DNA of 64,000 nucleotides, taken from positions 2,480,001 through 2,544,000 of the forward strand of contig NZ_CP046582.1 of assembly GCF_018141005.1 (NCBI RefSeq). The letters are read 5' to 3'. The notes under the pieces are model-generated. The model saw nothing but the letters and a program-made list of their open reading frames with translations, did not search any database and was not told where the DNA came from. The position numbers were made by a program, and so were the translations under genes. Below are positions 18,423 through 33,114 of the stretch, in pieces. Source of the DNA: Erwinia sp. E602. Its GTDB lineage: Bacteria > Pseudomonadota > Gammaproteobacteria > Enterobacterales > Enterobacteriaceae. Within the stretch, counting starts at the first letter, position 1. Every line of letters starts with the position of its first letter.

Positions 18423-20012
18423 TCAGCCGATCCCCAGCGCCGCCTTCACCTCCGCCGCAATTTTCTCCACCTGTGGGCCATAAATCACCTGCACATCGTG
18501 CTCACTGACATGCCTGACGCCGTTGGCCCCGGTTGTCATCAGCGTTTCATCAGCCACCTGCTGCATATCGTTTACCCTAACCCGTAGCCGGGTGAAGCAG
18601 CAGTCCACGTCACTAATGTTCTCCGCACCGCCCAGCCCGCTGATAATGGTTTTAATCCGCTCGTCGGCTGACACCGTTGCCGCCGGCTCCTGATCCGCTG
18701 ACTCTCGCCCCGGTGTCTCTACCCGCATACGCCTGATGATAAAGGTAAAGCTGTAGTAATAGACCGGCAGGTAGACCAGCCCCAGAACAATGCTCCACCA
18801 CCAGGCGGTCTTACTGCCACCGAGAATACCGAACACCACCAGGTCGATCGCCCCGCCCTGTATGTTGCCGATCATCAGGTGCATCAGCGACATCAGCATA
18901 AACGACAGGCCACTCAGCACGGCATGCAGGATGTAGAGCACCGGCGAAACGAAGATAAAACAGAACTCCAGCGGTTCGGTAATGCCGGTGCTGAAAGAGG
19001 TCAGCGCCCCGGCCAGCATGAGTGCCTTGACCCGCTGCTTTTCTGCAGGGCGTGCGCAGCGGTAAATCGCCAGTGCGGCGGCGGGCAGGCCAAACATCAT
19101 CACCGGAATTTTTCCCTGCGCCAGAAAACGTGTGGCCTCACGCACCGTGTCATCCGGCACGCTGCCCGGGTGGGTCAGCGAGGCATTGAAGATATTCAGT
19201 GCGCCGACCAGCGTTTGTCCGTCTACCGTGGCCACACCACCAATAGGGGTAAAGCGCACGGTTTCATTGAGGATATGATGCAGGCCGGTGGGGATCAGCA
19301 GCCGCTCGCTGCTGCCATAAAGAAAGGCGCCATACTGGCCGCTTTTGCCAATCAGCTCGCCGACCCAGGCAATGCCGTTGCCGATGGTCGGCCAGATCAG
19401 CGCCAGCAGAACGCCGGCCAGCGGCAGCACCAGCACGGTAACGATCGGTACAAAGCGACGCCCGCCGAAGAAGGCGATCGCCGTTGGCAACTGCACGGTG
19501 TAGCAATGGTTGTGAATGACCACGGTCAGCAGGCCAGCTATCACCCCACCCAGGACACTCATGTTATAGGTAAAGATACCAAGCATCTGGATATATTCCG
19601 CCGCCTGCATCATTGCGGCAGTTTGATCCATCCCCTGCTGCTGCAGCGCCGCCGGGGTGGTGGTGGCTGCGGTCAGCCCCTGTGCTGCCAGAGTGGCGCT
19701 TACGCCGACGTGCATAACGATAAAACCAATCGCCGCAGCAAAAGCGGCGGTGGGCTTTTCCGCCTTTGCCAGACCAATGGCACTGGCCACGGCGAAGAAC
19801 AGCGGCAGATTGGCAAACAGTGCGCCAGCCACCTTGCGAATAAAGCCAATAATCAGCTGCGGCAGCGGCAGGCCAGCGAAGGCTTCGCCGGTAATGGCCG
19901 GGTTTTGTAGCGCGGCGGCCACACCAAGAAAGATACCGGCGGCGGCGATCACCGAAATCGGCATCATAAGTGCTTTTCCAAAGGCATGAACGTTACTGGC
20001 GAACTGTTTCAT
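18423..20012 (-). CDS. PTS EIICB permease, glucose/maltose family
   Basis: Sugar phosphotransferase permease of 529 residues with an N-terminal EIIC membrane domain (about 1-410, many helices, GITEPLEF substrate loop near 350) and a C-terminal EIIB domain (about 440-529). The phosphorylated cysteine is most likely Cys472 in DCCFTRLR; a second cysteine immediately before it is unusual. No EIIA domain is fused, so Crr/EIIAGlc must serve. No glycosidase or regulator of a sugar operon is adjacent, so the substrate (glucose, maltose, alpha-glucoside type) cannot be told. It is divergent from the YdeP-like gene. Confidence 0.88.
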   Translation of the reverse strand: MKQFASNVHAFGKALMMPISVIAAAGIFLGVAAALQNPAITGEAFAGLPLPQLIIGFIRKVAGALFANLPLFFAVASAIGLAKAEKPTAAFAAAIGFIVMHVGVSATLAAQGLTAATTTPAALQQQGMDQTAAMMQAAEYIQMLGIFTYNMSVLGGVIAGLLTVVIHNHCYTVQLPTAIAFFGGRRFVPIVTVLVLPLAGVLLALIWPTIGNGIAWVGELIGKSGQYGAFLYGSSERLLIPTGLHHILNETVRFTPIGGVATVDGQTLVGALNIFNASLTHPGSVPDDTVREATRFLAQGKIPVMMFGLPAAALAIYRCARPAEKQRVKALMLAGALTSFSTGITEPLEFCFIFVSPVLYILHAVLSGLSFMLMSLMHLMIGNIQGGAIDLVVFGILGGSKTAWWWSIVLGLVYLPVYYYSFTFIIRRMRVETPGRESADQEPAATVSADERIKTIISGLGGAENISDVDCCFTRLRVRVNDMQQVADETLMTTGANGVRHVSEHDVQVIYGPQVEKIAAEVKAALGIG

Positions 20013-20158
20013 CTGGCCCCCTGCGCTGACGTTGAGCGTTAAGTATTAGCCCGGGTGGCGCTTCTGGCGCGTTTCCGGCGGCTAAACGGCAGCCATTTTT
20101 TGAGGAGCATCACATTTTTTAGCCTCTGACGATAAACATCAGCTATCGCTTCATCGCC

Positions 20159-20188
20159 CTAATCAATTAGACAAGCCGGTTACCGGCT
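20159..20188. promoter_or_regulatory. Two adjacent dyads between PTS and ydeP-like genes
   Basis: CTAATCAATTAG (5-2-5 dyad, 20159-20170) is followed 3 nt later by AGCCGGTTACCGGCT (20174-20188), a perfect 7-1-7 palindrome. They lie in the 237-nt divergent promoter region and are good operator candidates for either gene. Confidence 0.45.
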
Positions 20189-20249
20189 CGCAAAATTCAG
20201 GCAAACAAACCATAACTTCATAACAACTATTCAACACAAGCCTGCCATC

Positions 20250-22556
20250 ATGAAATTTAAAGAAGCGATTAAGCCCTATCAGGCCGCAGCCGGCGGCTGG
20301 GGTTCACTGGAAGCCACCACCCGTTTTGTCTTTGACAGTAAGCAGGTGATCAAGAACATGCGTAACCTGATGCGCATGAACAAAGCCAAAGGTTTTGACT
20401 GCCCGGGCTGTGCCTGGGGCGATGACAATAAAAGCACCTTCAGCTTCTGCGAAAACGGCGCCAAGGCGGTGACCTGGGAAGCCACCCGCCGCCATATCGG
20501 TGCAGAGTTCTTCGCCCAGTACAGCGTCAGCCAGCTTTACCAGCAAAGTGATTACTTTCTTGAATATCAGGGCCGTCTGACCGAACCGCTGCGCTACAAC
20601 CGTGAAACCGACCATTACGAGCCCATCAGCTGGGATAACGCCTTCGCGCTGATCGCCCGCCATGTCCACGCGATGGATAATCCCCATCAGATGGAGCTGT
20701 ACACTTCCGGCCGCGCCAGTAACGAAGCCTCCTGGCTCTATCAGCTGTTTGGTCGCCTGAACGGCAGCAATAACTTCCCCGACTGTTCGAACATGTGCCA
20801 TGAGGCCAGCGGCACCGGTCTGAAGCGCAGCATCGGCGTCGGTAAGGGCACCATTCGTCTGGATGACTTTGACCACGCCAGTGCGATCTTCGTTTTCGGA
20901 CAAAACCCGGGCACCAACCACCCGCGTATGCTGCACAGCCTGCGCCACGCCGCCGACAACGGCGCGAGCATCGTCACCTTCAATACCCTGCGCGAACGCG
21001 GCCTTGAGCGCTTTGCCGACCCGCAGAAGCCGCTGGAAGTGGTCACCAGCATGGCCGGCCAGATCAGTTCCAGCTACTATCAGCCCAACCTCGGCGGCGA
21101 TATGGCCGCGGTGCGCGGCATGGTCAAGGTGCTGGCAGAGACCCATCGCGCCCGCCTCGCCGCAGGGGAAAGCGGCCTGTTTGACCAGGCCTTTATCAGC
21201 GCCAATACCGAGGGCGTGGAGGCATACCTGGCCACCGTTGATGCCACTCCGTGGTCGCATATTGTGAGCCAGTCCGGCCTGAGCGAGCAGCAGATCCGCG
21301 AAGCGGCCACCCTCTACCAGAACGCCGAACGGGTGATCTGTACCTGGGCGATGGGCATCACCCAGCATAAACATTCGGTAGATACGGTCCGCGAAATCGT
21401 TAACCTGCAGCTGCTGTTTGGTCAGCTGGGCAAAAAAGGTGCCGGCCTGTGCCCGGTGCGCGGCCACAGCAACGTGCAGGGCAACCGTACAATGGGCATC
21501 GATGAGAAGCCCTCAAAGGCATTCCTTGACAGCCTCGGCAGCCATTTTGACTTTGAGCCGCCGCGCGAACCCGGCCACAACACCGTTGAAGCGCTGGAAG
21601 CGATGCTGCGCGATGAGATTAAGGTGCTGATCGCCCTCGGCGGCAATCTGGCGGCAGCCGCGCCGGACAGTCCGCGTACCGAGCAGGCGCTGAAGCGCTG
21701 CGGTTTAACGGTGCAGATCAGTACCAAGCTGAACCGCAGCCACCTGTGCCCCGGCGCGGTGGACGCGCTGATCCTGCCGACCCTTGGCCGTACCGAGCAG
21801 GATCTGCAGGCCAGCGGCCCGCAGTTTATTACCGTCGAGGACTCGTTCAGCATGGTGCACGCCTCGGAAGGGGTGGGTAAACCGATCGCCGACACCCAGC
21901 GCTCGGAAACCTGGATCGTCGCCGGTATCGCCAACGCGGTGCTGGGCAGTGCGAAGGTCGACTGGCAGGGGCTGGCCGATGACTACGGCAGGATCCGTGA
22001 ACATATTGCGGCGACCATTCCCGGCTTCAGCGACTTTAACGCCAAATGCGATCTGAAGGGCGGCTTCTACCTTGGCAACGCCGCCGCCGAACTGCGCTTT
22101 ACTACCCTGCATGAGAAGGCGCAGTTTAGCGCCGCCGCCCTGCCCGACTCGCTGTTCCCGCCGCTGGCCGAGGCGGTGCCTTATACGCTGCAGACGTTAC
22201 GCTCCCACGATCAGTACAATACCACCATTTATGGCCTTGATGACCGTTACCGCGGCGTGTATGGCCAGCGCGAGGTGCTGTTTATCAACGCGGAAGATAT
22301 GCAGCGCCAGGGGCTGGCCGCAGGCGACCTGGTGGATATTGAAACGCTGTGGAATGATGGCATTACCCGTAAAGTCAGCGGCTTTAAGCTGGTGCCTTAC
22401 GCCATCCCGCGCGGCAACCTCGCCGCCTACTATCCGGAAACCAATCCGCTGGTGCCGCTCTCAAGCTTTGGCGACGGTAGCGGTACGCCAACCTCTAAGT
22501 CGGTGCCGGTGAAAATCAGCCTGTCGCCGCAGGTGCCGGGGCTGCGCATCGCCTGA
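20250..22556 (+). CDS. ydeP: YdeP-like molybdopterin oxidoreductase
   Basis: Predicted molybdenum-cofactor enzyme of the FdhF/YdeP family, 768 residues (E. coli YdeP 759). It opens with the YdeP N-terminus (YQAAAGGWGSL) and the cysteine cluster CPGCAW with a further cysteine at FCENGAKA, possibly ligating an iron-sulfur cluster. The central molybdopterin domain shows TSGRASNEASWLYQ, NNFPDCSNMCHE and NPGTNHPRM, and the C-terminal dinucleotide-binding domain shows RSHDQYNTTIYG. The substrate is unknown; E. coli ydeP is implicated in acid resistance. It ends in a terminator at 22561. Confidence 0.88.
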   Translation: MKFKEAIKPYQAAAGGWGSLEATTRFVFDSKQVIKNMRNLMRMNKAKGFDCPGCAWGDDNKSTFSFCENGAKAVTWEATRRHIGAEFFAQYSVSQLYQQSDYFLEYQGRLTEPLRYNRETDHYEPISWDNAFALIARHVHAMDNPHQMELYTSGRASNEASWLYQLFGRLNGSNNFPDCSNMCHEASGTGLKRSIGVGKGTIRLDDFDHASAIFVFGQNPGTNHPRMLHSLRHAADNGASIVTFNTLRERGLERFADPQKPLEVVTSMAGQISSSYYQPNLGGDMAAVRGMVKVLAETHRARLAAGESGLFDQAFISANTEGVEAYLATVDATPWSHIVSQSGLSEQQIREAATLYQNAERVICTWAMGITQHKHSVDTVREIVNLQLLFGQLGKKGAGLCPVRGHSNVQGNRTMGIDEKPSKAFLDSLGSHFDFEPPREPGHNTVEALEAMLRDEIKVLIALGGNLAAAAPDSPRTEQALKRCGLTVQISTKLNRSHLCPGAVDALILPTLGRTEQDLQASGPQFITVEDSFSMVHASEGVGKPIADTQRSETWIVAGIANAVLGSAKVDWQGLADDYGRIREHIAATIPGFSDFNAKCDLKGGFYLGNAAAELRFTTLHEKAQFSAAALPDSLFPPLAEAVPYTLQTLRSHDQYNTTIYGLDDRYRGVYGQREVLFINAEDMQRQGLAAGDLVDIETLWNDGITRKVSGFKLVPYAIPRGNLAAYYPETNPLVPLSSFGDGSGTPTSKSVPVKISLSPQVPGLRIA

Positions 22557-22560
22557 CGTA

Positions 22561-22583
22561 AAGCCGGGATTTCCCGGCTTTTT
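22561..22583 (+). terminator. Intrinsic terminator after ydeP-like gene
   Basis: AAGCCGGG/CCCGGCTT stem of 8 bp, loop ATTT, then TTTTT, 4 nt after the stop. Confidence 0.9.
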
Positions 22584-22651
22584 ACTTGCCGCTGCGCGGT
22601 TAATCGCGTAAAACTGTCTGCCGCACTTAGGCCACGAAAACTGTTGAGATT

Positions 22652-24589
22652 ATGTTCCAGGATAACCCGCTGCTCGCGCAGCTCAAAGAGAAACTCCACT
22701 CCCAGACGCCGCGTGTTGAGGGTGTGGTAAAAGGCACTGAGAAAGGCTTTGGCTTCCTGGAAGTCGACGCACAGAAAAGCTACTTTATTCCGCCGCCGTT
22801 TATGAAAAAAGTCATGCACGGTGACCGCGTCTCCGCGGTGCTGCAGACCGATAAGGATCGTGAAGTTGCCGATCCGGAAACGCTGATTGAGCCGTTCCTG
22901 ACGCGCTTTGTTGGCCGGGTGCAGAAGAAAGATGACCGCCTGTCGATCGTTCCCGATCATCCGCTGCTGAAAGATGCCATCCAGTGCCGCGCCGAGCGTG
23001 ACGTGAAGCATGACTTCCAGACCGGTGACTGGGCGGTGGCCGAGATGCGCCGCCATCCGCTGAAGGGCGACCGCACCTTCTACGCTGAACTGACCGAATT
23101 TATCACCACCGGTGACGATCACCTGGCACCGTGGTGGGTGACACTGTCACGCCATACGCTGGAGCGTGAAGCTCCGGACGTCGCTACCCCGGAAGAGATG
23201 CTTGACGAGTGCCTGCCGCGCGAAGACCTTACCGGCCTGGACTTCGTAACCATCGACAGCGCCAGCACCGAAGATATGGACGATGCGCTGTATGTGGAAG
23301 AAACGGCAGAAGGCAACCTGCTGCTGACCATCGCCATTGCCGACCCGACCGCCTATGTGCCGGTGGGCAGCAAGCTGGATGCGATCGCCGCCGGACGCGC
23401 CTTTACCAACTATCTGCCGGGCTTCAATATTCCGATGCTGCCGCGCCAGCTGTCTGACGACATCTGCTCGCTGCGCCCGAACGTGCGCCGCCCGGTGCTG
23501 GCCTGCCGCGTGACGCTGGCCGCCGACGGTACGCCGCAGGGTGAACCGCACTTCTTCGCCGCCTGGATCGAATCGAAAGCCAAACTGGCCTATGACAACG
23601 TCTCAGACTGGCTGGAGAACAGCGGCGACTGGCAGCCGGAATCAGAAGCCATCGCACAGCAGATCCGCCTGCTGCATAAGGTGTGCCTGGCACGCTGCGA
23701 ATGGCGCCAGACCCACGCGCTGGTGTTCAAGGACCGCCCTGACTTCCGCTTCCTGCTGGGCGAAAAAGGCGAAGTGCTGGACATCATTGCCGAGCACCGC
23801 CGCATCGCCAACCGTATCGTGGAAGAGTCGATGATCCTTGCCAACGTCTGCGCCGCCAGCGTGCTGCGCGACAAGCTGGGCTTCGGCATCTACAACGTTC
23901 ACCTCGGCTTTGACGCGCTGAACGCCGAACAGGCCGCCGCCGTGCTGGCCAACCACGGCGTCACCGCTGACCCGCAGGCGATCGCCACGCTGGAAGGCTT
24001 CCGCGTACTGCGCCGCGAGCTGGACACCCATCCGACCCAGTTCCTCGACAGCCGCATCCGTCGTTTCCAGTCGTTTGCCGAAGTCAGCACCACGCCGGGG
24101 CCGCACTTTGGCCTTGGCCTGGACGCGTACGCCACCTGGACCTCACCGATCCGTAAGTATGGCGATATGGTCAACCATCGTCTGTTGAAAGCCATTATCA
24201 AAGGCGAGCCGGCGGAAAAACCTGCCGACGAGCTGACGGTGAAGATGGCTGAGCGCCGCCGCCAGAACCGCATGGCCGAGCGTGACGTGGGCGACTGGCT
24301 CTACTCGCGCTTCCTGCAGAATGCGGCCGGCAGCGAGCAGCGTTTCAGCGCCGAAGTGATCGACGTTTCACGCGGTGGCATGCGCGTGCGCCTGCAGGAT
24401 AACGGCGCGGTGGCCTTTATCCCGGCGCCGTTCATTCACGCGGTGCGTGATGAGCTGGTGTGCAGCAACGAAAACGGTACGGTGATGGTGAAAGGTGAAG
24501 TCGCCTACCGCGTTACCGACCTGATTGAGGTCACCATCGCCGAAGTGCGTATGGAGACCCGCAGCATCGTGGCCCGCCCGGCTGCCTGA
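22652..24589 (+). CDS. rnb: Exoribonuclease II
   Basis: Processive 3'-5' hydrolytic exoribonuclease that degrades unstructured RNA. It has 645 residues (E. coli 644). Cold-shock-like N-terminal domains (about 1-180) precede the RNB catalytic domain with [14 protein letters not shown] (metal-binding aspartates) and a C-terminal S1 domain (about 560-645: [16 protein letters not shown]). The ATG follows a GAG-rich stretch. It keeps its E. coli position next to the gmr orthologue. Confidence 0.97.
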
Positions 24590-24598
24590 TGACGTTTA

Positions 24599-24628
24599 GC
24601 AGCGGGCCGGCTCTGGCTGGCCCGCTGC
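24599..24628 (+). terminator. Hairpin after rnb
   Basis: GCAGCGGGCC/GGCCCGCTGC perfect 10-bp stem extended by a GU/GC helix, 10 nt after the rnb stop. No T-tract follows, so termination may be inefficient or the stem may serve as a 3' end stabiliser. Confidence 0.6.
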
Positions 24629-25239
24629 CTTACCTGCCGTGATGTTGTCATCCACTTCTGCTGCCGTGTCATCCTGCTCTGCTCTCCCGGATTCATTCCC
24701 TCCTTCTTAGTACGCGGCCCGAACCTGCGACCCTGACCGATGCACCTTTAGCCATTGTCTGTTGCGCGCAGCGCGAGAAAAATTGCAGATAACTGCCATA
24801 AACTATTAAGCTATTCCGATGTTAACAGTGCTGTTATCGGACCAGCACCACGCTGGCCGCTGGCGTCTGGCCACCCCGACATAAAATAATTGCTGTTTCC
24901 TGCCCCCTCCACAGAAAGCCTGGAGTGAATAAGGCTTATAGGTTCTGATGAGTCAGGCCAGCGGCATGCTGATGAAATATTCTTGTTAACCTATTGAATA
25001 AAAAGAACACTAACGGTATTTTCAGTTAACTGAATTCAGACACACCCCGTGGCGACCTTCCTTAATGATTGATCCGGTGCCTTATCCGCGCGATCTCCCT
25101 CCCGATCGTTGTCGCGATCGGAAAGTTTTATTTCAGTATAAAATTGAGTATGGCGGCAACGGACGCAGCCGCTTTCGGCAGAATAATGTCGTTAAACCAG
25201 TATGATATCCGTTGCTACCTAGCACGAAGGAGAATCTGA
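24629..25239. other. Long intergenic region upstream of rpfR
   Basis: About 610 bp without a supported gene. Near its end CCGATCG-N6-CGATCGG (25102-25121) is a perfect inverted repeat, followed by a TATAAA element at 25137 and the ribosome site AAGGAGAATCTGA. E. coli has gmr much closer to rnb, so this leader is unusually long and may hold the rpfR regulatory region. Confidence 0.5.
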
Positions 25240-27225
25240 ATGACCGATGAACAGGGGCAGTCGCTGATGTATGCCTGGTTTGGCACCCACAGCCCTCATT
25301 GGCGTTTAACTTCTGACAGCGATGCCCTGCAGTTTGCCAAAGATGAAGGCGGCGTCACCAGTATCGCCGTGGCGCTGAGCCCCGGTCAGGCCAGCATGCT
25401 GCGCGCGATGACGGTGATCACCTCCAGCGTTAACCTCAGCCTGGCGATCTACGGCAACGACCTGTCGCTGCACCTGGTTGGCCGCAAGGTCAGCCAGTCG
25501 GCGTGGGCCGGTTCGGCGTCTGCCTGGGGCGATACCTCATCGGTCGCGCGTGACCTGGTGCACGGTCTCTCCTTTGCCGAGCAGGTGGTATCCGAAGCCA
25601 ACTCGGTGATCGTCATCCTCGATCAGCACGGGCATATCCAGCGTTTTAACCGCCTGAGCGAAGAGTACACCGGCCTGAAGGAGCAGGAGGTGATCGGGCG
25701 CAACGTGTTCAAACTGTTTATGACCCGCGAAGAAGCGATCGCCTCGCGCCGCAACGTGGCGCACTTTTTTCGTGAAGGCAGCTCGTATGAGGTAGAGCGC
25801 TGGGTCAAAACCAAAAAAGGCCAGCGCCTGTTCCTGTTCCGCAATAAATTTGTCCACAGCGGCAGCGGTAAAAATGAAATCTTCCTGATCTGCTCCGGCA
25901 CCGATATTACCGAAGAGCGCCGTGCTCAGGAACGGCTGCGGGTGATGGCCAATACGGACACGGTGACCGGCCTGCCGAACCGCAACTCGATCAACCAGGA
26001 TATCAGCGCCGCGCTGGAAAAACGTGTCAATGGCCAGGTCGGGGTGGTGTATCTCGATCTCGACAACTTCAAGAAGGTCAACGACGCCTACGGCCATATG
26101 TTTGGCGACCGGCTGCTGCAGGCGGTGTCGCTGGCGATCCTTAGTTGTCTTGAAGAGCAGCAGACCCTCGCCCGCCTCGGCGGCGATGAGTTTATTATCC
26201 TGGCGGAGCAGACCAGCCAGCTGGCGCTGGAGGCGCTGGCCTCACGCATTCTCGACCGCCTGAAGCAGCCGTTCCGCATTGGCCTGATCGAGGTCTACTC
26301 CGGCTGCTCGATCGGCATCGCCTTCGCCCCGCAGCACGGTGAGGATCGCGACAGCCTGATCCGCAATGCCGATACCGCGATGTATACCGCCAAAGAGGGC
26401 GGACGCGGCCGCTTCAGCATGTTCTGCTCCGAGATGAACCAGCGGGTGTTTGAGTATATCTGGCTGGACACCAACCTGCGCAAAGCGCTGGAGCTGAGCC
26501 AGCTGGTGATCCACTATCAGCCTAAGCTCAACGCCGACAACAGCGTGACCAGCGTTGAGGCGCTGGTGCGCTGGATGTCGCCGGAACGTGGACTGGTGCG
26601 ACCGGACAGCTTTATCTCCTACGCCGAGGAGTCCGGGCTGATCGTGCCGCTTGGCCGCTGGGTAATGCTGTCGGTGCTGGAGCAGATTAAACGCTGGCGA
26701 GTGATGGGGATTGACCTGCGGGTGGCGGTGAACGTGTCGCCGCGTCAGCTGATCGACCAGAGCATCTATTCCGATCTGAAGCATGCGCTGAACGAGGCGG
26801 GGATTGTCGGCTGCCCGATTGATATCGAGCTGACCGAGAGCTGCCTGATTGAGAATGAGCAACAGGCGCTGGACCTGATGCAGCAGTTCCAGAAACTGGG
26901 GGCGGCGGTGCATCTGGATGATTTTGGCACCGGCTATTCGTCGCTGTCGCAGCTGGCACGGGTGCCGATTGACGCGATTAAGCTCGACCAGAGCTTTATC
27001 CGCGGAGTGGATTCGCAAAAAGTCTCGCAGTCGCTGGTGCGGGCGATTGTAGCGGTGGCGCGCGCGCTGGATCTGCAGGTGATTGCCGAAGGGGTGGAAA
27101 CCCCGGAGGAGGAGGCGTTTGCCATCGCCAGCGGCGTTGACCTGCGCCAGGGGTATCTGTATGCAAAGCCAATGCCCGCCGGGGAGCTCGAGCACTGGCT
27201 TAAACAACGTGCCGCTAAGGATTAA
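25240..27225 (+). CDS. rpfR: RpfR: DSF receptor, c-di-GMP enzyme (Gmr/PdeR orthologue)
   Basis: 661 residues, same length and domain order as E. coli PdeR/Gmr (YciR): an N-terminal domain (about 1-105) that in Cronobacter RpfR binds RpfF, a PAS domain (about 108-225) that binds the fatty-acid signal, GGDEF (site GGDEF at 314-318) and EAL (EALVRW at 440-445). All catalytic signature residues of both domains look intact. In Burkholderia and Cronobacter, binding of cis-2-unsaturated fatty acid to PAS stimulates phosphodiesterase activity and lowers cyclic-di-GMP. Its convergent neighbour rpfF, 15 nt away, makes this a receptor/synthase pair. Confidence 0.9.
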   Translation: MTDEQGQSLMYAWFGTHSPHWRLTSDSDALQFAKDEGGVTSIAVALSPGQASMLRAMTVITSSVNLSLAIYGNDLSLHLVGRKVSQSAWAGSASAWGDTSSVARDLVHGLSFAEQVVSEANSVIVILDQHGHIQRFNRLSEEYTGLKEQEVIGRNVFKLFMTREEAIASRRNVAHFFREGSSYEVERWVKTKKGQRLFLFRNKFVHSGSGKNEIFLICSGTDITEERRAQERLRVMANTDTVTGLPNRNSINQDISAALEKRVNGQVGVVYLDLDNFKKVNDAYGHMFGDRLLQAVSLAILSCLEEQQTLARLGGDEFIILAEQTSQLALEALASRILDRLKQPFRIGLIEVYSGCSIGIAFAPQHGEDRDSLIRNADTAMYTAKEGGRGRFSMFCSEMNQRVFEYIWLDTNLRKALELSQLVIHYQPKLNADNSVTSVEALVRWMSPERGLVRPDSFISYAEESGLIVPLGRWVMLSVLEQIKRWRVMGIDLRVAVNVSPRQLIDQSIYSDLKHALNEAGIVGCPIDIELTESCLIENEQQALDLMQQFQKLGAAVHLDDFGTGYSSLSQLARVPIDAIKLDQSFIRGVDSQKVSQSLVRAIVAVARALDLQVIAEGVETPEEEAFAIASGVDLRQGYLYAKPMPAGELEHWLKQRAAKD

Positions 27226-27240
27226 CTAGCGCACGGCGAC

Positions 27241-28110
27241 TCAGCCAGCGTGGCGTAACGCCTGCTGGCTGTGTCGATTCTGCAACGTCACCAGCCGTTC
27301 CATATAGGCGATATCCTTCGGCTCCAGCTGAAATGCCGCATCCACCCAGTCTTCCGTAATATCCATCAGCTCACCCCGGCTCAGCTGTAGCACCCGCTGA
27401 CGCGCGCGCAGCATGGCGCGCACGCCGTTCAGCTTCGGCCGCAGCGTATCGATAAAGGTGCGCGTGCAGCGATAGCCGTCACCCGGCTGGAACAGACGAT
27501 CCACCAGCCCGCGGGTTTCAAACCACTCCGCGGTGTGCGACTCCCCTTCACAGATCAGCTCTTCGGCCAGCTTCATGCCGGAACGCCGTGCCACCAGTGA
27601 ATAGCCGCCCATGCCCGGGAACAGGTTAAAGGCGATCTCCGGGAAGCCCATGCGGGCGGTGTTCTGCGCGAGGATAAAGTGGTGCGCCAGCGCGGCTTCA
27701 AAGCCGCCGCCCAGCGCGCTGCCCTCAATCATCGCAATGCTCACCGCCCCGCAGTCGAAACCGCGCGCCGCGGCGTGGATGCAGTCCACACAGGCGCGGG
27801 CATAGGCACGCAGGGCTTCCCGCCGGCCATTTTTGATCGACTCGACAAAGAAGCGCAGGTCGCCGCCCGCGTTAAACATGGTCGGTACCAGCGAGCCGGT
27901 AACCCAGAAATCAATCTCCAGCCCGCTGCGCTGGGCGGCATAGCTGAGGTTCATGATCTCTTCAATCAGCTGATGATTGAAGCTCGGGCGCGGCTGGGCA
28001 CGCAATAACATCCACAGGGTGCGCCGCTCTTCTTCATAGTAAGCCGACAGCTGGGTGGTAGAGCCGACTTCATTGAACAGACGGCAGGTAGCCTGATTAA
28101 TAACGGTCAT
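27241..28110 (-). CDS. rpfF: RpfF-type DSF (cis-2-unsaturated fatty acid) synthase
   Basis: Crotonase-fold enzyme, 289 residues (Xanthomonas RpfF 289). RpfF acts as acyl-ACP dehydratase and thioesterase making diffusible signal factor. Oxyanion-hole segments are FNAGGDL (79-85) and SALGGGFEAAL (131-141). The two catalytic glutamates are Glu138 and Glu158, spaced 20 apart like Glu141 and Glu161 of Xanthomonas RpfF, and the family stretch GFPE...LFPGMGGYS is present, which separates it from general enoyl-CoA hydratases. Start: ATG at 28108-28110 with AGAGGATG upstream. It is convergent with rpfR; araD lies 109 nt upstream on the same strand. Confidence 0.92.
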   Translation of the reverse strand: MTVINQATCRLFNEVGSTTQLSAYYEEERRTLWMLLRAQPRPSFNHQLIEEIMNLSYAAQRSGLEIDFWVTGSLVPTMFNAGGDLRFFVESIKNGRREALRAYARACVDCIHAAARGFDCGAVSIAMIEGSALGGGFEAALAHHFILAQNTARMGFPEIAFNLFPGMGGYSLVARRSGMKLAEELICEGESHTAEWFETRGLVDRLFQPGDGYRCTRTFIDTLRPKLNGVRAMLRARQRVLQLSRGELMDITEDWVDAAFQLEPKDIAYMERLVTLQNRHSQQALRHAG

Positions 28111-28219
28111 AGTTTCATCCTCTGTTAGTTGGCGCGATAATCGCTTAACCAGCCTAATAGAGAGTGAGTAAAGCCAGAACAGGTGCCTGATATAACGGAT
28201 AAAAATTTTTATCGTCAGA

Positions 28220-28918
28220 CTATTTTTGCCCGTAATATGCCTGGGCGCCGTGCTTACGCAACCAGTGTTTGTCCAGTAGCGCCTGATCCACCGGCGGCAG
28301 CTCCGGGGTTAGCTGACGGCTGAAAATGCCCATATAGGCTACCTCTTCCAGCACGACGGCGCTGTGCACTGCTTCTTCCGCGCTACGCCCCCAGGCGAAC
28401 GGCCCGTGCGAATTGACCAGTACCGCCGGTACCGCCAGCGGATCGATCTCGCGCTGCTGCAGCGTTTCAATAATCACCTGGCCGGTGTGCCATTCGTAGC
28501 GGTCGCTAATTTCGTCGGCGTACATCGCGCGCGTGCAGGGGATTGCGCCGTAAAAGTCATCGGCGTGGGTGGTGCCCCAGGCGGGGAGATCGCGGCCCGC
28601 CTGGGCCCAGATGGTGGCATGGCGTGAGTGGGTGTGGACAACTCCCCCTATCTGCGGCCAGGCAAGATAGAGCGCGCGATGGGTGTCGGTGTCGGACGAC
28701 GGCCGTTTGCTGCCTTCGACCACCTCGCCACTGCTGAGGCTGACCACCACCATATCGTCGGCCTGCATCTCTTCGTAGCTTACGCCGGACGGTTTAATCA
28801 CCACCAGCCCCTGCTCACGATCGATGGCGCTGACGTTGCCCCAGGTAAAAGTCACCAGGCCATAGCGCGGCAGCGCCAGGTTGGCCGCCAGTACCTGCTG
28901 TTTCAGTTGTTCCAGCAT
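28220..28918 (-). CDS. araD: L-ribulose-5-phosphate 4-epimerase
   Basis: Class II aldolase-family epimerase, 232 residues (E. coli AraD 231), interconverting L-ribulose-5-P and D-xylulose-5-P. Zinc ligand histidines lie in [14 protein letters not shown] and the product ends in HGPFAWG, EEVAYMG and [10 protein letters not shown], as in AraD. The start at 28918 ([17 protein letters not shown] upstream) is chosen; an upstream extension ([10 protein letters not shown]) lacks support. araB and araA are not adjacent, so its operon is elsewhere or it has another role (UlaF and SgbE are relatives). It precedes rpfF on the same strand with an AT-palindrome GATAAAAATTTTTATC between them. Confidence 0.9.
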
Positions 28919-29085
28919 AATCTCGTCTCCCGATGCATGTCGGAATATTGTCATGCCAGCGCGGCCGGGACGGTATGGAAGCATTGGCTGAATAGCGGGC
29001 AGTTTCTGACTGAGGCAGGAGAAGTGTGTACAGAGATGTCTAAAAATTAGGAATTTTCACCTGAGCGTATAATCAGTAAACCCTT

Positions 29086-29094
29086 CTATACTTA
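29086..29094 (+). promoter_or_regulatory. Sigma-S type -10 element of osmB
   Basis: CTATACTTA fits the extended -10 preferred by sigma-S (KCTAYACTTA). It lies 52 nt upstream of the osmB start. A second TATAAT at 29068-29073 is nearby. E. coli osmB has sigma-S and Rcs-controlled promoters. Confidence 0.65.
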
Positions 29095-29145
29095 GAGGGT
29101 ATCCAGACAATTAACGCTATCTGGTCGACGAAAATCAGGAGAATA

Positions 29146-29364
29146 ATGATGTCAACTACTGCAAAACGCGTTACCGCCGCCGTATTGGCTGCAACTTTAG
29201 TCCTTTCACTCAGCGCCTGTTCAAACATGTCGAAACGCGATCGTAACACCGCCATTGGTGCCGGCGCCGGTGCTATCGGCGGCTCAATTCTGACCAACGG
29301 CAGCGGCCTTGGCACCCTCGGCGGCGCGGCCGTCGGCGGTATAATCGGCCACCAGGTCGATTAA
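29146..29364 (+). CDS. osmB: Osmotically inducible lipoprotein OsmB
   Basis: 72-residue lipoprotein as in E. coli. The lipoprotein signal ends in LSAC (lipidated Cys25). The mature part is the glycine-zipper module RDRNTAIGAGAGAIGGSIL...GGAAVGGIIGHQVD, typical of OsmB. Induced by osmotic and stationary-phase stress in E. coli. The next gene, yciH, is convergent and shares a terminator. Confidence 0.96.
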   Translation: MMSTTAKRVTAAVLAATLVLSLSACSNMSKRDRNTAIGAGAGAIGGSILTNGSGLGTLGGAAVGGIIGHQVD

Positions 29365-29411
29365 GCTGACGACGGTATAGCCGGCAGGCTGCCTGCAGCA
29401 GCGCTTAGCAA

Positions 29412-29437
29412 AAAGGCCACGATCGCTCGTGGCCTTT
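29412..29437. terminator. Bidirectional terminator osmB/yciH
   Basis: AAAGGCCACGA-TCGC-TCGTGGCCTTT, an 11-bp stem with A-run before and T-run after, so it can end both convergent transcripts. Confidence 0.9.
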
Positions 29438-29440
29438 CCC

Positions 29441-29767
29441 TTATCCGCCGGCCAGTTTGACCCTGTGCCCTTTGGCCTCCAGCAGCGTTTTCAGCAGGTC
29501 GCGCTGGTCGCCCTGAATCTCAATCACGCCATCCTTGAGCGCGCCACCACAGCCGCACTTTTTTTTCAGCTCGGCGGTCAGCTTGCTCAGCTCGGCGTCG
29601 TCCGCGTCGATACCGCTAATCAGGCACACGCCCTTGCCCTTTCGCCCGCTGGTCTGGCGCGCAATACGTACGATACCATCGCCCTTCGGGCGCACCGCTA
29701 CCGCTTTCGGCTCGTCAATACGTCCGCCGGCCGTCGAGTAGACCAGGCGGCTGTTGTTATCGGCCAT
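29441..29767 (-). CDS. yciH: SUI1/eIF1-family translation factor YciH
   Basis: 108 residues as in E. coli; contains the SUI1 domain (about 30-105) with GRKGKGVCLISG and the cysteine pair KKCGCGG. Stress-related inhibitor of translation initiation by homology; the role is not firmly defined. ATG overlaps the pyrF stop by 1 nt (TAATG), so the two are coupled. Confidence 0.95.
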   Translation of the reverse strand: MADNNSRLVYSTAGGRIDEPKAVAVRPKGDGIVRIARQTSGRKGKGVCLISGIDADDAELSKLTAELKKKCGCGGALKDGVIEIQGDQRDLLKTLLEAKGHRVKLAGG

Positions 29768-30483
29768 TACGCCTCCTGCAGTGAGCTGAGAATCGCGGCA
29801 AGCGTAGCGGCCGGATCGGCAGACTGGGTAATCGGACGCCCGATCACCATATAGTCAACGCCGGCCTGCTGCGCCTGCTCAGGCGTCATGATGCGGCGCT
29901 GATCGCCGGCATCGCTACCCGCCGGGCGAATACCCGGCGTTACCAGCCTGAAGTCCTGGCCAATGTGCTGTTTAAAACGCACCGCTTCGTGTGCGGAACA
30001 GACCACACCGTCGAGGCCACACTGGCGGGTCAGCCGCGCCAGCCGTTCCGCCTGCTCTGCCGGGGTCAGGGTAATGCCCAGCCCGCGCAGGTCTTCAGCG
30101 TCCATGCTGGTGAGTACCGTCACGGCGATCAGCAACGGCGCATCGTTGCCAAACGGCACCAGCGCTTCGCGCGCCGCGCTCATCATCCGCGCCCCACCGC
30201 TGGCGTGAACGTTGACCATCCATACGCCGAGATCGGCCGCTGCCGCCACCGCGTGGGCGGTGGTGTTGGGAATATCGTGGAATTTCAGATCGAGAAACAC
30301 CTCGAAGCCGCGCTGCTGCAGGTCACGGACGATCTGCGGCCCGAACAGCGTGAACATCTCTTTGCCCACCTTCAGACGGCAGCTGCCGGGTTCAATCTGG
30401 TCGACAAACGCCAGCGCGCGATCGCGATCGGCGTAATCTAAAGCGACCACAATCGGTGAACCGCTAACCTGAATGTCTTGCAT
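29767..30483 (-). CDS. pyrF: Orotidine-5'-phosphate decarboxylase
   Basis: Last step of UMP synthesis, converting OMP to UMP in the cytoplasm. 238 residues (E. coli 245). The active-site charge network [10 protein letters not shown] (Asp-Lys-His-Asp) is intact, and the phosphate-gripper segment [13 protein letters not shown] follows near 190. The start at 30483 (MQDIQVSGS) has AGGAGA upstream; a longer frame (276 codons) runs into the intergenic region. It follows lapB after 207 nt and is coupled to yciH. Confidence 0.97.
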
Positions 30484-30690
30484 GGAACTCTCCTGGTGGG
30501 TGGCAAACGGCTGGCATTCTACCTGTGTCAGGAGGAAATTCACAGGCAAGGTATTGAGAAAATGGCCCGCGCTGTAAAAAACTCCCTCGCCCTGCATGAC
30601 CGCGCTGCACCGGCGTTACTGCAACCCTGTCGGGAGAGGGATAAAAAGTATGTTGTAACTAATTGACGATACCGGTTTAATCGCCCCCGG

Positions 30691-31860
30691 TTACTGGCCG
30701 TCGAGGCCACGGATCGGTTTAACCGAAGACCAGGTGCGGCATGACGGGCAGTGCCAGTAGAGCGCATGGGCGGTGAAACCACACTTGTGGCAGCGGTAGC
30801 GCGGCTTGGTGCGGATCTGCTCGCCAACCATATCGCGCAGCACCATCAGGCTCTCTTTCGCTCGGCCCGCTTCGGCCTCCTGCAGGTTAAAGTCCATCAG
30901 GCGATGGAAAACGCGCATGGTAGGATGACGCTGCAGCTGGCGGGTAATATAGGTTTGCGCCACCTCGGCCCCTTCATCGCGATCGAGGATCGCCGCCAGG
31001 TGCAGCTCCGCCGCCGCGCCGGTGTTCTCTTCCACGCAGCGCTGCAGATAGTCGCGCCACGCCTGCGGCTGGTTGAGGTGCTGATAGCAGGTTTCCAGCA
31101 TATCGAGTGTTTCACTGACCAGCTCGTGATCCTGTTCGATCACCCGCTGCAGATGGCTGACCGCGCGGGCGTACTCCCCTTTCGCCAGCTGAATGCGCCC
31201 CATCATAATCGATACGCGGGCGCTGTTGCGGTCCGCGGACTCACCCCGTTTCAGCAGGCTCATTGCCCGGTCGAGATCGTCGCTGCCCATCGCCTGCAGC
31301 GCCAGCTCGCAGTAGAAGTGGGCGATCTCCATCTTCTGCCGCTCTTTGCCCAGCTTAACCAGCCGCTCCGCCACCTCAATGGCGTTGGTCCAGTCGCTGG
31401 TCGCCTGGTGGATCAGCAGCAGCTGCTGCAGCGCGCTGACGCGGAAGTCGGTTTCATCCACCAGCTGGCCAAACATCTGTTCGGCGCGGTCGTAGAAGCC
31501 GGCGGCCATATAGTCGCGCCCCAGCTGCTGGATCGCCAGCAGGCGCTGGTCGTAGGTCAGCGACGCGCTCTCCATCAGCGCCTGGTGAATGCGGATCGCG
31601 CGGTCGACTTCGCCGCGCGAACGGAACAGGTTGCCCAGCGTCAGGTGCGCTTCCACGGCCCCGCTGTCCTCTTTCAGCATCTCAAGGAACAGGTCAACCG
31701 CTTTGTCCTGTTGATTGGAAAGCAGGAAGTTAACCCCGGCTACGTAATCCCGTGACAGGCGGCTGGCCTCCTGTTGCTTATCCTGTTGCGCGCTGCGCCG
31801 GCCCATATACCAGCCGTAGGCGGCAGCGACGGGCAGCAACAGAAACAGCAGTTCCAACAT
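30691..31860 (-). CDS. lapB: LPS assembly regulator LapB
   Basis: Essential inner-membrane protein that controls LpxC proteolysis by FtsH and thereby LPS synthesis. 389 residues as in E. coli. An N-terminal helix (about 1-20) anchors it; TPR repeats fill the middle (from about 40 to 340); the C-terminus has a rubredoxin-like metal site CHKCG...CPSC. It starts 6 nt after the lapA stop, same strand. Confidence 0.97.
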   Translation of the reverse strand: MLELLFLLLPVAAAYGWYMGRRSAQQDKQQEASRLSRDYVAGVNFLLSNQQDKAVDLFLEMLKEDSGAVEAHLTLGNLFRSRGEVDRAIRIHQALMESASLTYDQRLLAIQQLGRDYMAAGFYDRAEQMFGQLVDETDFRVSALQQLLLIHQATSDWTNAIEVAERLVKLGKERQKMEIAHFYCELALQAMGSDDLDRAMSLLKRGESADRNSARVSIMMGRIQLAKGEYARAVSHLQRVIEQDHELVSETLDMLETCYQHLNQPQAWRDYLQRCVEENTGAAAELHLAAILDRDEGAEVAQTYITRQLQRHPTMRVFHRLMDFNLQEAEAGRAKESLMVLRDMVGEQIRTKPRYRCHKCGFTAHALYWHCPSCRTWSSVKPIRGLDGQ

Positions 31861-31866
31861 AAAGTA

Positions 31867-32175
31867 TTATTCCCTGACTGCCGCAGGCTGGGCGCTGGCC
31901 GCAGTGGTATCGCTCTGCCCCAGCTGCTGCTGCAGACGTTTCAGCTTACGCTGGCTGTTGGCCAGCGACAGGCGCAGCCGCAGCCAGAACAGCCCGCAGA
32001 TAGCCCAGCCAAGTATAAATCCGCTGGCAAACAGGGTTGCCAGCAGCGTTGAAATACGGAACTCGCCCTGCGCCAGCAGGTAGTTAAAGTTCACCACCTG
32101 GTCGTTGTGCGCGCCGAGGGTGACAGAAACGACGAATATCGCCAGCACAACCAAAAAAATCAGCAAATATTTCAC
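31867..32175 (-). CDS. lapA: LPS assembly protein LapA
   Basis: Small inner-membrane protein (102 residues; E. coli 102) with two transmembrane helices (about 3-22 and 45-66) and a charged coiled tail, working with LapB. Start is GTG (complement 32173-32175); an ATG start would lose the first helix. Its leader contains a very stable hairpin and a sigma-32-like promoter. In E. coli lapAB is heat-shock induced. Confidence 0.94.
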   Translation of the reverse strand: MKYLLIFLVVLAIFVVSVTLGAHNDQVVNFNYLLAQGEFRISTLLATLFASGFILGWAICGLFWLRLRLSLANSQRKLKRLQQQLGQSDTTAASAQPAAVRE

Positions 32176-32247
32176 AGTGCATCCCGTTATCTGGAGTTAA
32201 CCAGATGAATTATGCCAAAAAAATCGCCCCGATGCTTGCTTAGATGC

Positions 32248-32316
32248 AGCGGATGCGGCCGCCACGGACGCTGCACGCGATCCCCCTGCGGCGGTTCCGC
32301 GCGTCCCGCATCCGCT
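32248..32316 (-). other. Large stem-loop in the lapA leader
   Basis: AGCGGATGCGG (32248-32258) and CCGCATCCGCT (32306-32316) form a perfect 11-bp outer stem; inside, CCGCC (32259-32263) and GGCGG (32290-32294) also pair. The structure starts about where transcription from the predicted heat-shock promoter would begin. Farther down, GGGGCGATTTTTTT recalls a weak terminator. Possible attenuator or RNA-stability element. Confidence 0.5.
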
Positions 32317-32319
32317 AAG

Positions 32320-32346
32320 AAATGGGGGCAGCTCGTCAGTTTACAA
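32320..32346 (-). promoter_or_regulatory. Possible sigma-32 promoter of lapAB
   Basis: On the minus strand TTGTAAA followed 13 nt later by CCCCATTT resembles the sigma-32 pattern CTTGAAA-N13-15-CCCCATNT. It overlaps the 3' end of pgpB. E. coli lapAB is a heat-shock operon. Confidence 0.5.
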
Positions 32347-32349
32347 TCA

Positions 32350-33114
32350 TTAAGGCTGATTTTCCCGTTCGGCTATCTCCTGCTGCTCCTGCAGCGGCAC
32401 GCCGAGCGGGCCGCAGAAGCGCTGCGCCAGCCAGGTGGCGAGGCTGACAAACAGCCAGCTGAACAGGGTGGCAACGATCAGGTCACGCGGCCAGTGCATG
32501 CCGAGCGCCAGCCGGCTGCCCATCACCAGCGACGCCCACACCAGCAGCACGATGATGGTCACGTAGCGCCGGCGCGGCCACAGCAGGCCAACGCCGAGCA
32601 GCGCCCAGCTGGCCGCAAACATCGTATGACCGGACGGGAAGGCAAAACCGGTTTCAAACGCCCAGTGGCGCTTCAGCCAGCCGGGGAGCTGCTTATCTTC
32701 CGCTACCGCCTCGCTGACCAGTTGGCTGCGCTGCTTTCGGTGCTGCTGGTAAAAGGTCTCCGGGTTAACGCCGCGCTGCTGCTCCAGCCACAGCACGTAG
32801 GGGCGCGGCTCCCTCACCTGCTCTTTAATCACCCCTTTGGTGTACTGCCCGATCAGGATCGCGCCGACGATAATCGCCAGCAGAAACACCGCCGGTTTCA
32901 GGCGAAAGCGCAGGCACCAGAGAAACCAGCCGCAGAGGATGGCACTGGTCAGCGTGCCCCACGGCCGGGTCACCGTTTCGGTAAACCAGAACAGAATCTG
33001 ATGCCCCAGCCCCATCTCCACCGGCTGCCAGCGCCAGCCCGATACCATTACCGCCAGCGGCAACAGCAGCAACAGCAGCGCCCCCAGCGTGGTACGTTTC
33101 AGAATATCCTTCAT
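32350..33114 (-). CDS. pgpB: Phosphatidylglycerophosphatase/undecaprenyl-PP phosphatase PgpB
   Basis: PAP2-family membrane phosphatase, 254 residues as in E. coli. The three signature segments are present: KEQVREPRPY near 135, SGHTMFA near 185 (catalytic His) and SRLALGMHWPRDLIVA near 230 (second catalytic His). Several membrane helices. It dephosphorylates phosphatidylglycerol-P, undecaprenyl-PP and other lipid phosphates at the inner membrane. Divergent from ribA. Confidence 0.96.
   Translation of the reverse strand: MKDILKRTTLGALLLLLLPLAVMVSGWRWQPVEMGLGHQILFWFTETVTRPWGTLTSAILCGWFLWCLRFRLKPAVFLLAIIVGAILIGQYTKGVIKEQVREPRPYVLWLEQQRGVNPETFYQQHRKQRSQLVSEAVAEDKQLPGWLKRHWAFETGFAFPSGHTMFAASWALLGVGLLWPRRRYVTIIVLLVWASLVMGSRLALGMHWPRDLIVATLFSWLFVSLATWLAQRFCGPLGVPLQEQQEIAERENQP

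Follow-up and report, generated by a model that had tools for sequence, protein, structure and literature searches.

A predicted RpfF/RpfR signalling pair in Erwinia sp. E602 and the sequence evolution of its receptor with and without rpfF

Gene organization

We analysed a stretch of 64,000 nucleotides from Erwinia sp. E602 (contig NZ_CP046582.1, positions 2,480,001 to 2,544,000; referred to as the window), which contains the two convergent genes rpfR and rpfF. Homology and comparative analysis indicate that they very probably form a complete module for signalling through RpfF and RpfR, of the type known from Burkholderia and Cronobacter. The genome has a size of 5.17 Mb in two contigs.

The open reading frame of rpfR (25240–27225, + strand) starts with ATG and comprises 661 amino acids. 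It belongs to the gmr/pdeR family (NCBIfam PRK10060.1) and is predicted to code for a receptor and cyclic di-GMP (c-di-GMP) phosphodiesterase. The open reading frame of rpfF (27241–28110, − strand) also starts with ATG and comprises 289 amino acids. Its product is a predicted synthase of the diffusible signal factor (DSF) or of the Burkholderia diffusible signal factor (BDSF), with a crotonase fold and the residues E138, E158, F44 and F88. Both genes are intact and lie tail to tail with 15 bp from stop to stop (27226–27240), which confirms the complete convergent pair described in the initial annotation. The sequence GAAGGAG precedes the start of rpfR, and CAGAGGA precedes that of rpfF.

Identity of RpfF

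The closest solved structures to RpfF are 6dgn (E-value 2e-124) and 5fus (2e-123), the latter being RpfF of Burkholderia cenocepacia, to which the window protein is 64% identical. RpfF of Cronobacter muytjensii (P0070) shows 76% identity, and the nearest named sequences among the best 80 of 317 matches listed come from E. persicina (93%) and from E. rhapontici and E. typographi (92% each). An alignment with an E-value of 1e-45 and 158.7 bits was obtained for 3m6m, which we take to be an RpfF of Xanthomonas origin and which has the glutamate pair in common with the window protein. RpfF scores 408.9 bits to NCBIfam PRK08788.1 (cut-off 177), a model titled only 'crotonase/enoyl-CoA hydratase family protein', and its Pfam matches are to crotonase domains only. 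No second rpfF was found in the genome, where a single place exceeds the PRK08788.1 cut-off.

We calculated a tree of 51 rows, in which the branching order of the RpfF-like groups has little resolution; 20 of 48 inner branches are open, and warnings apply to several long branches. The window RpfF, 12 enterobacterial RpfF sequences and B. cenocepacia RpfF form a clade of 14 rows with a support of 100/100. Outside this clade lie four enoyl-CoA hydratases encoded by the same genome; a fifth match (L045) gave no alignable piece. A phylogeny had been proposed as a check of the RpfF assignment. A position of RpfF among general enoyl-CoA hydratases would have spoken against the assignment, and this was not observed.

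The residues E138, E158, F44 and F88 are identical in 96 of 96 genomes with an intact pair and in B. cenocepacia. According to PMC6361424, F44 and F88 shift position in the complex with the RpfF-interaction (FI) domain of the receptor. The initial annotation had named two glutamates with an RpfF-specific spacing. The glutamates are indeed present, but GGGxE followed by a glutamate at the RpfF distance also occurs in three of the four enoyl-CoA hydratases from the same genome. Since ordinary crotonases share this spacing, we rejected it as a marker, and it is no argument for the identity of RpfF.

Domain structure of RpfR

RpfR scores 1179.6 bits to PRK10060.1 ('cyclic di-GMP phosphodiesterase', cut-off 782), presumably the Gmr/PdeR model. 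All four domains that had been assigned to it from the sequence were recovered by Pfam and by solved relatives of the FI and PAS domains. The FI domain consists of residues 1–95 (25240–25524, + strand, as for the following domains; 6dga_A, E = 4.6e-26). It is followed by the PAS domain (residues 115–224, 25582–25911; 6dgg_A, E = 2.7e-60), the GGDEF domain (residues 237–390, 25948–26409; E = 3e-45) with its GGDEF motif at residue 314, and the EAL domain (residues 412–644, 26473–27171; E = 3e-68) with EAL at residue 440 and DDFGTGYS at residue 560. The motifs GGDEF, EAL, ELTES and DDFGTGYS are all intact.

The PAS domain contains all five published residues of the BDSF pocket, S169, N172, Y183, R187 and N202. 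These residues are described as BDSF contacts in PMC6361424, where substitution by alanine at the positions of the B. cenocepacia protein that correspond to S169, N172, R187 and N202 led to higher c-di-GMP.

Distribution of the gene pair

We surveyed 392 genomes of the family, sampled evenly, and scored rpfF as absent if the assembly gave no match at an E-value of 1e-60 or better. This resulted in 140 genomes with rpfR and 99 with rpfF. All 99 carriers of rpfF also contain rpfR, and the two genes are convergent in every one of them. The gap between them, measured between the protein matches with stop codons included, is 6–118 bp in 91 carriers and 320–6288 bp in 8; in G307, G124, G078, G223, G429 and G373 it amounts to 1.4–6.3 kb. 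One genome (G321) harbours a second, lone rpfF (C7:1005864–1006727, 73% identity to the window rpfF) approximately 280 kb from its own convergent pair. In 41 genomes rpfR stands alone (referred to as orphan), three times as an incomplete match.

Within the genus of the window, rpfF was found in 27 of 36 genomes searched and rpfR in 28 of 37, the counts differing because G447 was searched for rpfR only. The nine genomes without rpfF are also those without rpfR. For E. coli, a search at the DNA level gave an rpfR match in 5372 of 5426 genomes and no rpfF match in 20,395 records, in line with the earlier statement that this species keeps gmr and lacks rpfF. In three loci the pair is in place with one gene interrupted or shortened, namely rpfR in L230 and rpfF in L244 and L253; perhaps these are cases of loss in progress.

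Plasmid-borne RpfF-like genes from Methylobacterium, Sphingomonas and Bosea (35–38% identity) were considered as members of the same system and were not grouped with RpfF/RpfR. On the Methylobacterium and Sphingomonas plasmids (L047, L049) the distant RpfF-like gene lies tail to tail with a gene for a GGDEF-EAL protein. The two partner proteins align to RpfR over GGDEF-EAL only, with no RpfR-like N-terminus seen in BLASTP, and a comparison of the FI domain with the L049 partner gave no match; L048 was compared by Pfam alone. The L047 and L049 pairs are possibly a separate DSF-like module.

Evolution of paired and orphan receptors

To compare receptors with and without rpfF we used 96 intact paired RpfR sequences, including that of the window, and 38 orphans. 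The orphans with partial rpfR (G259, G120, G087) and the broken or short paired loci (L230, L244, L253) were dropped. L091, flagged with a stop, was retained because one open piece spans at least 90%, and the B. cenocepacia locus L046 was not counted as an orphan. The five pocket positions were fixed beforehand from PMC6361424. The seven positions of an FI signature were chosen from the paired set as invariant, so that its decay in orphans is partly a matter of data selection.

The complete pocket is present in 96 of 96 paired receptors and in 17 of 38 orphans. N172 is retained in 27 of the orphans, S169 in 31, R187 and Y183 in 36 each and N202 in all 38. Altered pockets occur in 21 orphans, distributed over 7 of the 10 all-orphan clades of the whole-RpfR tree. 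The FI signature is complete in 95 of 96 paired receptors versus 2 of 38 orphans (altered in 36 orphans and 8 of 10 clades). The GGDEF and EAL motifs are retained in all 38 orphans. Of 13 pocket changes counted on the tree, one lies in the Burkholderia outgroup (F at position 183) and 12 lie within the family. The latter are all located at nodes holding orphans and none at paired-only nodes. Chance figures, which assume that tree, are 6.9e-07 for all 13 changes and 0.00048 for the seven clades counted once each.

Among the positions with at least 98% conservation in paired receptors, conservation in orphans falls below 90% at 7 of 18 (FI domain), 10 of 61 (PAS), 5 of 61 (GGDEF) and 5 of 85 (EAL). 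The reverse count, with conservation in orphans, resulted in 1 of 10, 7 of 49, 12 of 72 and 28 of 115, respectively. This asymmetry is clear for the FI domain, small for the entire PAS domain and reversed in the enzyme domains.

On one topology, the ratio of FI to GGDEF plus EAL branch lengths is 1.25 for paired and 3.31 for orphan branches, and the corresponding PAS ratio is 0.37 and 1.00. None of 2000 shuffles of the branch labels, which ignore the clade structure, reached either value. The FI ratio lies above the paired 1.25 in all 10 orphan clades (1.62–4.92), the PAS ratio above 0.37 in 7 of them. For 33 overlapping paired clades (4–25 rows) the FI ratio has a median of 1.16 and a maximum of 3.12, the PAS ratio a median of 0.34 and a maximum of 1.34. 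As a control we used rnb (23 paired and 36 orphan rows). Of the 80 named loci, 58 dropped out, in nearly all cases because of an incomplete rnb. Relative to rnb, the rise in orphans is 3.96-fold for FI, 3.73-fold for PAS, 2.08-fold for GGDEF and 1.68-fold for EAL. Shuffles gave values as high in 25 of 2000 cases for EAL and in none of 2000 for the other three domains. Since GGDEF and EAL, measured against rnb, also evolve faster in orphans than in paired receptors, part of the change is general. Taken from sequences, the pattern suggests that receptors without rpfF drift in their signal-reading parts and retain their enzyme parts.

Chromosomal location and gene loss

The order rnb, rpfR, yciH, pyrF, lapB is found in 37 of the 38 orphans, and L058, at a contig start, is alike except for the missing rnb. 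In E. coli K-12, rnb, pdeR, yciH and pyrF follow one another in this order; yciZ, yciT and osmB are located between pdeR and yciH. The paired neighbourhoods were surveyed for the best 80 of 317 named loci, in which rpfF faces rpfR in 80 and the araD-like gene known from the window is present in 53. In seven of the nine genus genomes without the pair an araD-like gene lies 70–345 bp from rnb; of the other two, the L300 stretch has no araD-like match and L303 matches rnb only. A tblastn search at an E-value of 1e-3 found no relics of rpfF in the 38 orphan loci.

Parsimony requires the presence of rpfF to change 8 times on the whole-RpfR tree and 10 times on the GGDEF-EAL tree, counts that alone cannot separate gain from loss. 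The shared chromosomal place together with the repeated absence is most simply explained by an old rpfR-rpfF pair that would have been lost many times in situ. On balance we favour the reading that rpfF was lost in place many times, that the receptor retained its enzyme motifs and drifted most in the FI domain and the BDSF pocket, and that E. coli PdeR is a former quorum-sensing receptor. As parts of the same reading, PdeR without the pocket arginine would no longer discriminate BDSF, and in the nine genus genomes without the pair both genes would have been lost together, as a single segment flanked by rnb and the araD-like gene.

Proposed mechanism

By homology to B. cenocepacia RpfF (RpfFBc), the window RpfF would dehydrate a 3-hydroxyacyl acyl carrier protein (ACP) to the cis-2-enoyl-ACP and then free the acid. 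The substrate of RpfFBc in B. cenocepacia is 3-hydroxydodecanoyl-ACP. The cis-2 acid would bind to the PAS pocket of RpfR and raise the phosphodiesterase activity of the EAL domain, and c-di-GMP would fall. The FI domain of RpfR probably docks on RpfF and restrains it, as in the solved complex of relatives. An FI signature and a pocket that are near-invariant with rpfF and variable without it are what this mechanism predicts. By analogy with Cronobacter turicensis and B. cenocepacia (PMC4698668, PMC6361424), the window pair may be expected to produce the signal and to control biofilm, motility and virulence.

Alternative explanations

Several observations weigh against the interpretation given here. 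The window RpfF reaches only 184.1 bits with NCBIfam NF053515, the RpfF equivalog model, at a cut-off of 550. RpfF from B. cenocepacia (185.1 bits; 279 residues used) and from Cronobacter (188 bits) are likewise missed, so that this model does not cover the branch and the miss says little. The cut-off is passed by one RpfF (L267) in 369 genomes of the class, which is placed elsewhere among the RpfF-like proteins in the tree. Furthermore, the FI domain of the window is only moderately similar to known ones (51% identity to that of B. cenocepacia), and wild-type C. turicensis did not trigger a biosensor, which only plasmid-borne rpfF did (PMC4698668). With respect to receptor drift, the small asymmetry of the whole PAS domain belongs here, as does an independent-pairs test without significance. 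This test comprised 4 pairs when restricted to well-supported branches and 10 with all branches included, and the median p was 0.5 for either trait. No pair in it pointed in the opposite direction.

The faster evolution of the orphan FI and PAS domains might reflect a general relaxation of rpfR instead of a release from RpfF and its signal. The acceleration of GGDEF and EAL relative to rnb would fit, as would the similar PAS counts in both directions and an independent-pairs test whose four well-supported pairs are too few for significance. However, the rise is largest in FI and PAS, the GGDEF and EAL motifs are intact in every orphan, and the FI and PAS ratios exceed the paired values in 10 and 7 of the 10 orphan clades. 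We therefore regard a general relaxation as rather doubtful and prefer a release of the receptor after the loss of rpfF.

It is also conceivable that the pair works mainly inside the cell, tuning acyl-ACP hydrolysis and c-di-GMP, and that little signal exits. The FI domain inhibits the thioesterase activity of RpfF, which was proposed to limit wasteful cleavage of acyl-ACP (PMC6361424), and the negative biosensor result with wild-type C. turicensis points in the same direction. On the other hand, a C. turicensis mutant in rpfF partly regained its biofilm behaviour when BDSF or DSF was added (PMC4698668); cells can thus respond to a signal from outside, and a mainly internal role appears unlikely.

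That RpfF merely serves lipid metabolism as a common crotonase or thioesterase, located by chance beside a c-di-GMP phosphodiesterase gene, would agree with the Pfam matches, the general glutamate pair and spacing and the unspecific title of PRK08788.1, but it is highly improbable in view of the fully supported RpfFBc clade that leaves out the genome's own four hydratases, the strict co-occurrence and convergence with rpfR in 99 of 99 carriers, and the variation of FI signature and ligand pocket where rpfF is absent.

Comparison with known systems

The RpfF/RpfR system of C. turicensis, for which PMC6361424 gives structures of the FI and PAS domains, has the same five pocket residues as the window and an RpfF of the same family. 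The FI domain of the window has clearly diverged from it (94 bits over 95 residues), and function was demonstrated in C. turicensis (PMC4698668), whereas the window pair is known from its genes. The RpfFBc/RpfR pair of B. cenocepacia (BCAM0581/BCAM0580) shares E138, E158, F44 and F88 as well as the convergent gene arrangement (L046). In contrast to the window, its RpfR carries F at pocket position 183, and none of the other five tested neighbour genes of the window is present at L046. The B. cenocepacia system works together with GtrR and other partners, according to PMC12838280.

E. coli PdeR/Gmr (YciR), annotated as a c-di-GMP phosphodiesterase, is encoded at the same locus between rnb and yciH-pyrF and shows 68% identity to the window RpfR, with an alignment over all four domain stretches. 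Here rpfF is absent, the pocket reads SNYLN instead of SNYRN, i.e. the pocket arginine is lost in K-12, and the FI signature is GPSSVEV instead of GPDSAGV. The Xanthomonas RpfF is likewise a DSF synthase of crotonase fold with the same glutamate pair, as seen in the alignment with 3m6m, but its score marks it as distant from the window RpfF. Xanthomonas RpfF belongs to a system with RpfC and RpfG, in which RpfC is the receptor (PMC12838280). RpfC is a kinase and, unlike the window RpfR, not a PAS-GGDEF-EAL protein.

Neighbouring features

A gene of the AraD (L-ribulose-5-phosphate 4-epimerase) family (28220–28984, − strand) shares the strand of rpfF and lies 109 bp upstream of it. The gene exceeds the cut-offs of PRK12347.1 and TIGR00760.1, and a link to signalling is not evident. 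The gap between rnb and rpfR (24590–25239) has a length of 650 bp and contains an inverted repeat of 8 pairs at 25102–25121. The corresponding gap between rnb and pdeR in E. coli K-12 comprises 235 bp and contains the small ymiB. No Rfam match at gathering scores was obtained for positions 20000–33000 of the window, which include the rnb-rpfR gap. A promoter scan gave 0 sites (2.3 expected), and 6 terminator-like sites were observed (3.2 expected); neither count is informative.

Implications

Homologs of RpfFBc are listed for Erwinia, Pantoea, Enterobacter and others in PMC12838280. In passages of PMC9684580 and PMC6335245, YciR/PdeR is treated as an RpfR homolog or as a global regulator, with no comparison of paired and orphan receptors. 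Dodecanoic acid was the subject of speculation as a possible regulator of E. coli PdeR (PMC6361424). A comparison of paired and orphan RpfR was not found among the open-licence papers listed, judged by titles and beginnings of abstracts, and may be in print.

The window pair is an ordinary new member of a known system, and it is accompanied by an evolutionary pattern that can be tested. It is one further intact pair of the DSF type from a genus associated with plants. The presence of rpfF goes along with the conservation of the FI signature and the pocket, which supports the published structural model independently, from sequences. The comparison also offers a concrete and testable interpretation of E. 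coli PdeR as a protein that was once a receptor of the signal.
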